Shown here: positions 1 through 6,523 of the stretch, piece after piece
Layout of the letters: each line of letters opens with the position of its first letter
How positions within the stretch are numbered: the stretch's first letter is position 1
Assembly: GCA_039111535.1 (NCBI GenBank)
Contig: JBCCIM010000034.1
Location: forward strand, 1-39,135
DNA from: Bacteroidota bacterium
GTDB lineage: Bacteria > Bacteroidota > Rhodothermia > Rhodothermales > JAHQVL01
Direction of reading: 5' to 3'
DNA length: 39,135 nt
The notes under the pieces: generated by a model
Told to the model about the DNA's origin: nothing
Databases searched by the model: none
What the model saw: the letters and a program-made list of their open reading frames with translations, nothing else
Program-made: the position numbers and the translations under genes

Positions 1-613
1 CGTGGCCGTTTGCTTCGGAATAGCTCTCCATAAACACGTTGGTCTCCGCCGGATCTAATTCCACCCTGAATTCCTCGTCACGGATGATGAAGGGCTCTAC
101 GTTTTCATTGAGTCCGCCATATGCTCCCACTGGGACCACCGCTATATCAACCACTGGCGGGTGGTTCACAAAGTAGGCTTTAGCCAGCCGTACAATGGCA
201 CCGTCTCGCGGGTAATAACCAATCCCATCGTGATGCAAAAACAAGCTGCCGCCGGCTAAAACATACGCCTCAATAGCTTCCTCCTCTTCGGGCGTCAACC
301 ACCCATATTTCCTCGGATCCGGCTCTCTGGTCTCTAATTTTTTGTAGTCGTCGATATAATAACGACTCAAAACAATCAGGTCGTACGTGGAAAGTGCATC
401 AAAAGGCACATCGTAATCGGGTATGACATCCGTAACATATCCTTTCTTATTCAATTGCCCCACAATGGCGATGTCCAGCGGCGCAACGCCATGCCAGAAG
501 TCTCCGAGTATGGCCAGTGCTTTCTTAGCGGGTACCGTTTGCCCTGTAGCCACAAGGATGAACGTTGTACTTAAAAACAGGGCGAAAATTGATACGACAA
601 GGAGCTTTTTCAT
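1..613 (-). CDS. ThuA-like domain exported protein (3' part outside window)
   Basis: The minus strand reads open from an ATG at 613 to the window edge, giving about 204 residues with no stop, so the gene is truncated by the window. It begins with a signal peptide (MKKLLVVSIFALFLSTTFI...) ending near ATGQ. It continues with a Rossmann-like flavodoxin/GATase-type fold typical of ThuA proteins: 'ALAILGDFWHG', 'DLIVLSRYYIDDY', then 'YVLAGGSLFLHHDGIGYY'. The last segment matches the ThuA pattern of a glycine-rich turn followed by His. ThuA-like proteins are linked to trehalose and sugar utilisation, but the exact reaction is mostly unknown. The gene is divergent from the PQQ dehydrogenase at 723 with a 109-base gap that probably holds both promoters. 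A second ThuA domain occurs at 29015. The family call is fairly sure; the substrate is unknown. Confidence 0.75.
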   Translation of the reverse strand, partial: MKKLLVVSIFALFLSTTFILVATGQTVPAKKALAILGDFWHGVAPLDIAIVGQLNKKGYVTDVIPDYDVPFDALSTYDLIVLSRYYIDDYKKLETREPDPRKYGWLTPEEEEAIEAYVLAGGSLFLHHDGIGYYPRDGAIVRLAKAYFVNHPPVVDIAVVPVGAYGGLNENVEPFIIRDEEFRVELDPAETNVFMESYSEANGH

Positions 614-2885: not shown

Positions 2886-2905
2886 GCGAGGTTCGTGCCT
2901 TCCCC

Positions 2906-2934
2906 CACGTCATGCCGGACTTGATCCGGTATCC
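2906..2934 (+). repeat. REP-like palindromic repeat, copy A
   Basis: A 29-base element begins CACGTCATGCCGGA, has a CTTGA loop and ends TCCGGTATCC. The stem pairs CCGGA with TCCGG. It closely matches the copy at 3102-3130, where the stem has changed to CCGGG/CCCGG with pairing kept, and the opposite-strand copy at 6280-6305. Such short palindromes are dispersed extragenic elements in many bacteria. Confidence 0.7.
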
Positions 2935-3101
2935 ACAGGCATGGCACAACTCATCGTATCACCATGCGGGCTGCTTGCCCAGATCCTTCGCACGGCTCAG
3001 GAGGACATGGGGGAGTGCCTGACCCGGTGGGATCCTTCGCCAGTTCTGGAGGACAGCGAAAGTGCAGGGTGGCTTTGCAACCACGCGTCGACCACCCCCT
3101 C

Positions 3102-3130
3102 CACGTCATGCCGGGCTTGACCCGGTATCC
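3102..3130 (+). repeat. REP-like palindromic repeat, copy B
   Basis: This has the same 29-base layout as copy A (CACGTCATGCC...CTTGA...GGTATCC), with stem CCGGG/CCCGG. The two differences from copy A compensate each other, which supports selection on or copying of a hairpin. It lies about 135 bases from the DGR template repeat region. Confidence 0.7.
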
Positions 3131-3300
3131 AGAAAGGAATGCCGAGTGGCTTTTTTGGGGGGTAGCACACTGCCATCTCACGCTACGTCAAAAAACAACG
3201 CTAAGTCCCTCCACAAAACCGCCCCGCGCCCCCTATCCCTTTCATAGGCCGCGCACTGCGTGCGGGTTCATCGGATCATCGTTCATCGGGTTCATCGACC

Positions 3301-3429
3301 ATCGCGGAAGGGAGAACCACGATCCGAAAACCGTGGCTGCTGTAGCGGTTATCTGGATTGTTGTTGTTGCGCGCGGAGCAACGACAGTTGTTCGTGTTGT
3401 TGTTGAACGAACCGCCGCGCAAAACGCGT
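3301..3429 (-). repeat. DGR template repeat (TR)
   Basis: On the minus strand this segment reads as Arg-Val-Leu-Arg-Gly-Gly-Ser-Phe followed by runs of AAC codons (NNNTNNC...ARNNNNPDNR) and GFRIVV. It aligns without gaps at a constant offset of 580 bases to the end of the KAP-FGE gene (3881-4009). Over 128 aligned bases I count 19 mismatches, and 13 fall at adenines of the minus-strand template. That is the mark of adenine-directed mutagenic retrohoming. Blocks 3312-3334 and 3405-3429 are identical in both copies and bracket the variable part. AAC-dense codons are typical of DGR templates for this fold because mutation at A gives wide amino-acid diversity without stops. Weaker homology runs on to about 3264. 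The identification is secure; whether it is still active is doubtful. Confidence 0.92.
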
Positions 3430-3483
3430 TGCTTCGAGCCTGCCCCCGCAATAAACACAGCACGCGACTGTGTGATTGCCTTT

Positions 3484-3828
3484 TTAACGTTCCGCTTTGA
3501 TCCAGCCGCCCATAATGCGGCCCACTTCGTCCACCATCAGCGAAACGTGTTTGTATTGCCCCGGCGTCAGCCATTTCCAGCGTTCTGCCAGCCGCAAATA
3601 CAACCGTACTTTGGCCAGTGCCTCATCTGCCAACCGTAACCGCTGCCGGCGTTCATTCCCTTTGCGTGCATTCGCCTCTTCGAGGCGTTCTCTGACATCA
3701 AATGCGGCATTCAACAAGCGCTGCGTAACCGTATGCCGGTGCGCCTTCGGGAAATGATTGGTCACCGGCAATAGCCAGGTCAACAAATCAAACGTGCGGG
3801 TGAATATAGGCATTTGTTCGTGTTTCAT
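3484..3828 (-). CDS. avd: DGR accessory variability determinant (Avd-like four-helix protein)
   Basis: The product is 114 residues with no signal peptide and is predicted helical throughout: 'FDLLTWLLPVTNHFPKAHRH', 'LLNAAFDVRERLEEANAR', 'LADEALAKVRLYLRLAER' and 'QYKHVSLMVDEVGRIMGGW'. This matches the size and pattern of the Avd/23S-IVP-like four-helix bundle, including the characteristic FPK/HR segment and the closing 'MVDEVGRIMGGWIKAER'. In known DGRs Avd forms a basic barrel-shaped pentamer that binds the reverse transcriptase and template RNA. It starts 27 bases after the target gene stop and sits between variable and template repeats, the canonical position, so it is probably co-transcribed with the target. 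No RT follows it here, so its partner is missing from the window. The open frame looks intact. Confidence 0.9.
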   Translation of the reverse strand: MKHEQMPIFTRTFDLLTWLLPVTNHFPKAHRHTVTQRLLNAAFDVRERLEEANARKGNERRQRLRLADEALAKVRLYLRLAERWKWLTPGQYKHVSLMVDEVGRIMGGWIKAER

Positions 3829-3839
3829 AAACCTGTACC

Positions 3840-3884
3840 ATTCGATTCATCGCGTTCATCGTCCATCGTTTTCATCGGTCATCG
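3840..3884 (-). repeat. Degenerate CGATGAA tandem motif at the 3' end of the variable repeat
   Basis: On the minus strand, after the conserved GFRIVV codons, the sequence repeats CGATGAN at 7-9 base spacing through the target stop codon and beyond. A parallel array lies just past the template repeat (about 3264-3304). The arrays encode the acidic tails MTDENDGR and MVDEPDER. Their location next to the expected initiation-of-mutagenic-homology site is suggestive, but a function is not shown. Confidence 0.45.
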
Positions 3885-6123
3885 GGGAAGAGAGAACCAC
3901 GATCCGAAAACCGTAGCTGAGGTCGCGGTAATCCGGATAGTGGAAGTTGCGCGCAGAGCAACGACAGTGGTACGAGTTGAGGTCGAACGAACCGCCGCGC
4001 AAAACGCGTGATCTCCCCTTATCAGGCCCAGTAGGATCAGTTAAAACGCTATCCCCCCGCTTCTTGTATTCACTTTCATCAAACCAATCCTGACACCATT
4101 CCCAAACATTGCCCGCCATATCTACACAACCAAAAGGACTGTCGCCGTCCGGAGAAAAAGAACCTACCGTTGATGTTGCGCCCGTGCCGGTATTGAGCTT
4201 TTTCTCATCCCACGCGTCACCCCAGGGATATATACGATCATCCTCCATACCACGGGCAGCCTTTTCCCATTGGGCCTCTGTTGGTAACATCACTTCTCGA
4301 CCAGTTTTATCTCTTAACCACGCACAATACGCAGTTGCATCATCCCAGCTTACGTTGACAACAGGATGATCGCTCAGGTCTGAAGGGAAACTTCCTCCAC
4401 TCCAATGGCTTGGTTCGCGGTGTTTCGTCTCTTGCACAAATGCTTGATACTCTACGTTAGTTACTGGAAATTTACCTATTCGGTAAGCACTCGTGTTCAC
4501 TTTATGTTTGGGTAGCTCTCTTTTGAATTCATGACCTATTTTCTTTTGCTGCTCAGGCGTTGTCCCCATCCAGAACTCTCCGGCTGCAATAGGCACAGTA
4601 TCAGGCTCGTACTCAAACGGTTGATAATTGCTTTCGGGGACAATTTCAGGAGTTGTTTTAATGCTCCGGGTCAGCGTGAAATAGCGGCGCAGTTCGTCCA
4701 GCGGGAGCGATTCAAACGAAGCATCTGGGAGCGCAAGGTTTGCCTCCATAATGCGTTTGAGCACCGGATCACTGACGTATGCCTGCAAAGCTTGCGGCGG
4801 CTCTGGCGTTTGTCTAACTGATTCAGGCTGCGGGGTTTTGTCGGCTGCGCTTTCGCGCAACGCTCTGAAATATCCATCCAGGTCGCGCAGCAGGCGCGGG
4901 GTTTGTTTGATGCGGTCGTACACCGCCGGCACCGCTTGCTGTAGCGCTACCACCTTCGCCAACCGGATCGGGCGGATTTGCTCTGCTTCCTGTTTTTGCA
5001 CCAGCTTCCAGAGTAACAGGAACGTGTTTACCGTGCGTTTCACCTGCCGGGGACTTTCACCCATGCCTTCTGCAAACACTTCGGCACACGCGGGATCGGG
5101 CCAGTCTTTGACCAGCTTTTGCACAAACTCCCGCATCACGTTGCCTTCAATGGGAGGAATCTCAAAAGGTACCTGGATTATTTTTTCGAGGTACCGCCGG
5201 CCTTCCATGGCGTACTCTGGGTCCAGATCGATACGTTTTTCATCGTTCCAGCCCAACTCGCGGTACTTGATCTCCACACCCCGGCTGATGACACCATGGT
5301 CCAGCCCGAGGACAAAGAAACACCCTTCCACATCCATAAACAGCTTGATCGACTCCAGGACCTCGATGGATTTATCGGGCCGGCAGCGATCGAGATCGTC
5401 AATAAACACCACGAGTTTTCGGCCGGTGTCGCGCAGCGTCTCTTTGATCAGGGTCCCAAACGCGTCCTGAAATTCTTCGAGGGAGCGCATCCGTTCGCGG
5501 TGTTCTTTGTACCGCTCGCTTTCTATGGTTTCAAACAGGGTTTTGAGTTCGTTTTCGGTAGGCGTTTTGTCGCCTTTCAGCAACGCCGGCAACAGCGGCC
5601 CAACCAGTGGCACCATGCTTAACCCCATGCGCAGTACTGCCTGGCCTGCGCCCTGCGCCATCTTCCCCCAGTTGAACTGCACCTCACCCGGTTTTTCTAC
5701 TTCGATGGCGTGGTACAGGCTGCGTTCGATGGTATCAAACCTTTTCTCGCGTGCTTTCTTTTGTTTGGCCGTCTCTTTTTCGATTTCCAGCCGGCGTACC
5801 GTATCCAGCACACGCAAAATCAGGGCACGCCACAGCGCCTCTTCGCGGTCATACTTCCAGGCATCAAACCAAACCACAGGAAAGTTTTTGGACGCCGTAT
5901 GGGTTTGCAATTCACTCTGCACCATCCGCATGAGCGTTGTCTTCCCCGAACCCCACTTGCCGTAAATCCCAACGGTCATGGGTGTGGTTGCATCATCACT
6001 CGCAATAAAGTCTGTCAGGGTTTCAACATACGAGCCGACGTTGAGCAAGTCGTTGGCTAAACTTTTCTCTGGCAAATCGCCGGCAAGCGCACTACTCTCT
6101 TTGTACTGGGACATCGATTCCAC
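3856..6123 (-). CDS. KAP-family P-loop NTPase fused to FGE-sulfatase/C-type-lectin domain; DGR variable target protein
   Basis: The product is 755 residues. Residues 1-460 are a KAP-type NTPase: Walker A GKWGSGKT (55-62), a hydrophobic stretch at about 159-183 that may contact the membrane, and Walker B VVFIDDLD (238-245). A linker and helical region follow. Residues 508-745 are an FGE-sulfatase domain ('AAGEFWMG', 'YRIGKFPVTNVEYQAFV', 'HPVVNVSWDDATAYCAWL', 'LPTEAQWEKAARG', 'MAGNVWEWCQDW'). The last 50 residues (706-755) are the variable repeat, RVLRGGSF...GFRIVV. The paired catalytic cysteines of true FGE enzymes are not evident, so the domain is more likely a ligand-binding lectin fold. There is no signal peptide, so the protein should act in the cytoplasm. 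Inference: ligand binding by the variable face controls the NTPase, as in defence or conflict receptors. It starts at ATG 6123 and leads the avd/TR cassette. Confidence 0.9.
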   Translation of the reverse strand: MESMSQYKESSALAGDLPEKSLANDLLNVGSYVETLTDFIASDDATTPMTVGIYGKWGSGKTTLMRMVQSELQTHTASKNFPVVWFDAWKYDREEALWRALILRVLDTVRRLEIEKETAKQKKAREKRFDTIERSLYHAIEVEKPGEVQFNWGKMAQGAGQAVLRMGLSMVPLVGPLLPALLKGDKTPTENELKTLFETIESERYKEHRERMRSLEEFQDAFGTLIKETLRDTGRKLVVFIDDLDRCRPDKSIEVLESIKLFMDVEGCFFVLGLDHGVISRGVEIKYRELGWNDEKRIDLDPEYAMEGRRYLEKIIQVPFEIPPIEGNVMREFVQKLVKDWPDPACAEVFAEGMGESPRQVKRTVNTFLLLWKLVQKQEAEQIRPIRLAKVVALQQAVPAVYDRIKQTPRLLRDLDGYFRALRESAADKTPQPESVRQTPEPPQALQAYVSDPVLKRIMEANLALPDASFESLPLDELRRYFTLTRSIKTTPEIVPESNYQPFEYEPDTVPIAAGEFWMGTTPEQQKKIGHEFKRELPKHKVNTSAYRIGKFPVTNVEYQAFVQETKHREPSHWSGGSFPSDLSDHPVVNVSWDDATAYCAWLRDKTGREVMLPTEAQWEKAARGMEDDRIYPWGDAWDEKKLNTGTGATSTVGSFSPDGDSPFGCVDMAGNVWEWCQDWFDESEYKKRGDSVLTDPTGPDKGRSRVLRGGSFDLNSYHCRCSARNFHYPDYRDLSYGFRIVVLSSPMTDENDGR
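3881..4009 (-). repeat. DGR variable repeat (VR), in the 3' end of the KAP-FGE gene
   Basis: This segment encodes residues 706-748 of the target. Compared with the template, AAC codons have become GAC, CTC, TAC, CAC and TTC, ACG became TCG and AAT became TAT, while the flanking Cys, Arg, Gly and Phe codons are kept. Thirteen of 19 differences are at template adenines. Six are not, and four of those fall inside the core (matching template positions 3335, 3340, 3344 and 3375), which implies drift since the last mutagenic transfer. Confidence 0.92.
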
Positions 6124-6188: not shown

Positions 6189-6279
6189 GGTTGAAAGTTG
6201 CAGGTTTCTGGTTACAGGTTTTTGTAAAGAAGTGCAACGTGTGTTATCACTTCTCAAACACACCGTTTGCCATACCTGT

Positions 6280-6305
6280 GGATCCCCAGTCAAGCTGGGG
6301 ATGAC
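6280..6305 (-). repeat. REP-like palindromic repeat, copy C (opposite orientation)
   Basis: The reverse complement reads GTCATCCCCAG-CTTGA-CTGGGGATCC, keeping the GTCATnCC ends and CTTGA loop of copies A and B with a different but fully paired stem. Copies B and C therefore bracket the DGR cassette in opposite orientations. Confidence 0.65.
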
Positions 6306-6523
6306 GGTCTGCTCGGGCCATTTCAACAATGAAACCCCATTTCCACCCATCCAGCCCAAAAACTTTCAACCTGCAACTTGTAACCTTCAACCAATCCCTC
6401 GAAGAATCCATAAATTGCGCTGACACGCAGGTCTTGATTTAACAGGAACCTTATGTTTGAAACTTCCCCACCTGTTCGTTTGATACGAGGGGTACACGAA
6501 ATACAATCAAACCCATTACACAC

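Follow-up and report, generated by a model that had tools for sequence, protein, structure and literature searches.

The window, by which we mean the whole stretch of 39,135 nucleotides analyzed, carries a diversity-generating retroelement (DGR) that has very probably been inactivated by one crossover between its template repeat (TR) and the variable repeat of a second target gene (VR_B of target B), leaving the first target gene, target A, with what would now be a fixed variable repeat (VR). The parts of the locus are the following.

3856..6123, minus strand: target gene A, 755 aa, intact frame; KAP-family P-loop NTPase with a C-terminal FGE/CLec-like domain containing the VR
3885..4009, minus strand: VR of target A, the core that aligns with the TR
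3484..3828, minus strand: avd, 114 aa, intact frame
3432..3458, minus strand: TR leader GTGTTTATTGCGGGGGCAGGCTCGAAG, kept upstream of the TR in relatives that bear a reverse transcriptase (RT)
3345..3429, minus strand: AAC-rich portion of the hybrid that is true TR; all of its mismatches to the VR but one (3375) fall at adenines
3306..3344, minus strand: VR-type part of the hybrid; already diversified codons TAC AGC AGC CAC, followed by GFR and by an edge of IMH and not IMH* type
3276..3305, minus strand: C-terminal tail and stop of target B, SAMVDEPDER and stop, in register with the target-A tail SPMTDENDGR and stop
2886..3275, minus strand: place of the Sp RNA element and the RT in relatives; neither is present in the window
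3098..3131, plus strand: dispersed REP/MITE-like repeat, copy 2
2902..2935, plus strand: dispersed REP/MITE-like repeat, copy 1

The initial annotation had read a target gene, a VR, avd and a TR in canonical order on the minus strand, with the avd and target frames intact. Domain profiles and the repeat pair confirm the order, and both ORFs are indeed intact. Target A contains KAP_NTPase and FGE-sulfatase domains (Pfam), and the avd ORF matches both Pfam bAvd (1.3e-19) and NCBIfam DivGenRetAVD (92.3 bits, cut-off 80). Recognizable DGR parts are present and the core machinery is gone, as in a degenerate DGR remnant.

The repeat pair (3276-3429 and 3856-4009) is 84% identical. Over the 125 bases from 3429 to 3305 there are 19 TR/VR mismatches, 13 of them at TR adenines (Fisher p = 5e-6), exactly the count given in the initial annotation. 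This adenine signal, however, is found only in the 5′ two thirds: from 3429 to 3348 all mismatches but one lie at adenines, the single non-adenine mismatch in this 82-base TR-like part being at 3375, whereas hardly any do between 3344 and the 3′ end, a split that the first reading had missed. The leader of the window repeat (GCGGGGGCAGGCTCG) and its AAC-rich 5′ part match the TRs of relatives. From about 3344 onward the repeat in the TR position is a VR; its leader and the two thirds at its 5′ end are true TR sequence.

Scanned against 84,980 species genomes, the window avd recovered 66 loci, mostly in Chloroflexi MAGs, the best of them 65-70% identical; no relative of this avd was found in viral contigs. 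The nearest relatives, where intact, are ordered target(VR) - avd - TR - conserved spacer - RT, and in most relatives 85-100% of the TR/VR mismatches fall at adenines. In 27 TR/VR pairs of relatives the two repeats diverge just past GFR, the TR continuing into an ST(L/F)F-like sequence and the VR into an SP-like one. Past the same point the window TR reads VVLPSAMVDEPDER and the target reads VVLSSPMTDENDGR (in the longer readings, FRIVVLPSAMVDEPDER and FRIVVLSSPMTDENDGR), and each ends in a stop 15 codons past GFR. Over nucleotides 13-48 after GFR, window TR and VR are identical at 29 of 36 positions, compared with 9-24 in the relatives' TR-VR pairs. CGATGAA-like repeats abound in the hybrid tail and could make this similarity look higher than it is, but no other position in the window comes close, the next best reaching 20/36.

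The codons upstream of GFR are likewise of VR type. The 12 nucleotides before GFR (TAC AGC AGC CAC) hold 4 adenines in the window TR, against 6-8 in the TRs of 38 of 39 relatives; the VRs of relatives mostly have 2-5 here. The non-adenine mismatches at 3344, 3340 and 3335 set GAC CTC AGC TAC against TAC AGC AGC CAC, a pattern that would be expected of two VRs made independently from AAC codons. The tail of target B differs from that of target A by about 20%, and in the 5′ part of the TR/VR pair one non-adenine site differs, which argues that the TR crossed over with a distinct target gene, not with a recent duplicate of A. No further TR x VR hybrid was found among the roughly 100 avd loci examined.

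The absence of an RT behind the template, noted in the initial annotation, was confirmed: there is no RT between the TR and the PQQ gene, and searches with the RVT_1 profile and with the C39 RT found none anywhere in the window. RVT_1 run over the whole genome (6.6 Mb, 355 contigs, 97.6% complete) placed its single RT on another contig, C39, so that the full-genome search did turn up one DGR-type RT, though none at the window locus. Used as a query, the C39 RT added only a relic of about 16 residues on contig C290 and one chance-level match of 10.8 bits.

The RT is not the only part missing. In 39 related loci a TR-type 3′ edge (IMH*) closes the TR, and a conserved Sp element of about 130 nt lies beside it in nearly every one of them; the window has neither this edge nor a downstream spacer RNA. 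A covariance model of the Sp behind the TR (R1), built from 13 loci, finds the element in 21 relatives outside its building set at 58-98 bits, and also matches the majority in a second set of 40 loci that partly overlaps the first. The spacer on C39 scores 34 bits, being among the 13 model-building sequences and so a match by construction. The best score in the window, with filters off, was 4.4 bits, and elsewhere in the genome no further convincing hit turned up (best 15 bits, E 0.6). In the DGR of BPP-1 the spacer recruits the RT-Avd complex and a spacer adenine primes cDNA synthesis in IMH* (PMC12875486); by its homologous position, the Sp of the present family may have the same function. 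Across several phyla, the majority of loci in this DGR family have the element between TR and RT, with blocks AATGGCGG, TTCCCGGCC and GGGCAAATAACAACGGCC (e.g., L100:5546-5680, L097:2426-2560, L193:4372-4496), and no Rfam family reaches its gathering threshold on it.

From the hybrid anatomy we infer the following history. The ancestor would have been ordered target A (VR_A) - avd - TR - Sp - RT, followed downstream and in the same direction by target B with its own VR. A single crossover between TR and VR_B, as direct repeats, would have removed Sp and RT together with the 5′ body of target B, and produced a hybrid repeat in which the TR leader and the 5′ two thirds of the TR are joined to the 3′ end, tail and stop of target B. 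One such event would account at once for the hybrid, for the target tail and for the missing spacer, RT and target B. The substrate needed for it exists, since 10 relatives (L076, L080, L083, L085, L097, L106, L107, L111, L113, L117) have a second VR downstream of the RT. None of the relatives found keeps an intact ancestor with the same target B, and the deleted segment is a reconstruction. The event is probably recent, given the one non-adenine mismatch in the TR-like part. Without Sp, IMH* and RT, template cDNA would not be primed, and target A would be an ordinary gene with a fixed VR. The proposal that the RT was lost and the cassette frozen is supported, with the qualification that the loss is broader, taking the Sp and the IMH*-type edge as well.

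Other remnants occur around this family, and avd relics from other deletions are common among the relatives. L101 and L119 have avd with no nearby TR or spacer, and RTs elsewhere in their genomes. In L131 (3675-4199), a deletion remnant, avd residues 4-60 are fused in frame to a C-terminal part of the RT (266-338 of the C39 RT). A recurrent avd-RT fusion was considered and rejected, as other truncated avds have different ends. We also rejected the idea, taken from the order avd-RT-TR in C39 and G005, that an RT had been deleted between avd and TR with AITQSRAVFIAG as its C-terminal trace, because the nearest relatives are ordered avd-TR-Sp-RT and the AITQSRAVFIAG stretch is the conserved TR leader.

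The RT and Sp could instead have been lost by another route, an insertion of REP/MITE-like repeats or an ordinary deletion, with the VR-type end of the TR acquired separately by gene conversion from a VR. Two dispersed repeats do lie at the place of Sp and RT, MITE-like arrays replaced RT genes in Thiohalocapsa PB-PSB1 (PMC10907252), and relatives offer the avd relics just described. The dispersed repeat (CGTCATGCCGG.CTTGA.CCGGTATCCA) has several dozen copies in the genome, a third local one lying inverted on the other side of the DGR cassette (6268-6306); the gap at 2886-3262 has about 50 further genome matches, mostly to the two REP/MITE-like copies and one other stretch. This route nevertheless calls for a second event when a single one is enough, and gene conversion would not carry over a target gene's tail and stop codon; we regard it as unlikely. 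The repeats may have arrived later and are not needed for the crossover explanation. An assembly artefact, in which short reads of TR and VR_B were misjoined and the real genome has an intact DGR, might be suspected in a short-read draft of 355 contigs, the more so because the left end of the window is ambiguous, with C290 and C254 both ending in its first 135 bases. However, the window contains no Ns, the junction sits between sequences that differ at many positions, and no contig of this 97.6% complete genome carries the missing Sp, TR end or RT, so that an artefact appears very improbable. The ambiguous end is an assembly branch inside a duplicated ThuA-like gene, where window positions 1-135 equal C290:5538-5672 and C254:7419-7553, and C290 and C254 share 141 bases.

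The initial annotation had raised the alternative of an RT elsewhere acting in trans on the window template. The genome does contain a complete DGR, on contig C39 (L002, G000:C39, 5835-13932), ordered target - avd - RT - TR - target - target and including a spacer element, and the intact avd and target frames of the window, like the trans action proposed for Thiohalocapsa (PMC10907252), would suit diversification of the window VR by the C39 RT using the window TR and Avd. In contrast, the window RNA has neither Sp nor an IMH*-type edge, the 3′ third of its template is already mutated, and the RT, Avd and TR of C39 belong to another DGR lineage with the order avd-RT-TR (the Avd proteins are 39% identical). 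The VRs of C39 differ from its TR essentially only at adenines, and this TR, being unlike the window TR, cannot template the window VR. With no element to recruit or prime the RT and a different TR on C39, rescue in trans is unlikely; the annotation's alternative is not supported, and we consider it highly improbable. The specific version in which the C39 RT reads a spacer-less hybrid RNA, so that the template needs neither spacer nor IMH* and one RT serves two unlike templates, seems slightly less probable still. The C39 targets, an nSTAND1-FGE protein ahead of avd and two TIR-FGE proteins behind the TR, form a diversified set of immune-type sensors.

Contig C290 (L008) holds a wrecked DGR at 5105-5340, in which avd breaks off after residue 43 and runs on as an RT scrap (NAAF followed by RDRVVYHALCNIIEP; FRDRVVYHALCNIIEP). 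Ahead of the fusion stands a NACHT/DUF4062-like FGE target that carries a VR of its own, and this wrecked DGR may adjoin the window. It was considered as the other half of the window DGR and rejected, its VR and the window TR differing, by inspection, at many non-adenine sites, and C254 being as good a left neighbor of the window as C290.

A locus from another phylum, L214 (G279:C185:37000-44400), resembles the window in that no intact RT accompanies its target, avd and TR in cis, the RT being reduced to a relic of about 16-35 codons. Unlike the window, it keeps the spacer and a TR-type end (VR at about 2776, avd 3505-3828, TR at about 4000-4120, Sp 4155-4296), all 20 of its 20 TR/VR mismatches are at adenines, and contig C291 of the same genome encodes an RT of 72% identity that is accompanied by a TR and spacer of its own; two Ns at 3391-3392 mean that an assembly gap is possible there. 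L214 is a good candidate for trans action and suggests what a trans-served cassette should look like, and the window departs from it in spacer and TR end.

RT-less, degenerate and trans-served DGR loci have been published before (PMC10907252; PMC4891356); no description of DGR loss through TR x VR crossover was found in the open-access literature searched, which is not proof of absence. Thiohalocapsa PB-PSB1 has several DGR loci, one complete and others without RT or TR (Dore et al., 2024; PMC10907252), and resembles the window genome in its several loci, its targets of the NTPase conflict-protein type and the dispersed repeats at the lost RT. There, however, the loss was put down to transposons or MITE-like arrays, whereas the window carries the footprint of a TR/VR hybrid, and some Thiohalocapsa loci match a TR elsewhere at all non-adenine sites (trans activity), whereas no TR elsewhere fits the window. 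The window shares with the BPP-1 DGR (avd-TR-Sp-brt) its target-avd-TR order, adenine-specific TR/VR mismatches and Avd family, and differs from it in the absence of Sp, IMH* and RT. In Treponema denticola strains without the core DGR (PMC4891356), as in the window, a VR-bearing target outlives the machinery; both RT and TR are gone there, whereas the window keeps avd and two thirds of the TR.

If the crossover took place as proposed, the locus shows base by base how a DGR can turn itself off: the repeats become a substrate for deletion once a second target sits behind the RT, and multi-target DGRs would thereby carry a route to a fixed receptor. For RT-less cassettes, the rule would be that trans action is invoked only once the 3′ edge of the TR and the spacer RNA have been inspected.
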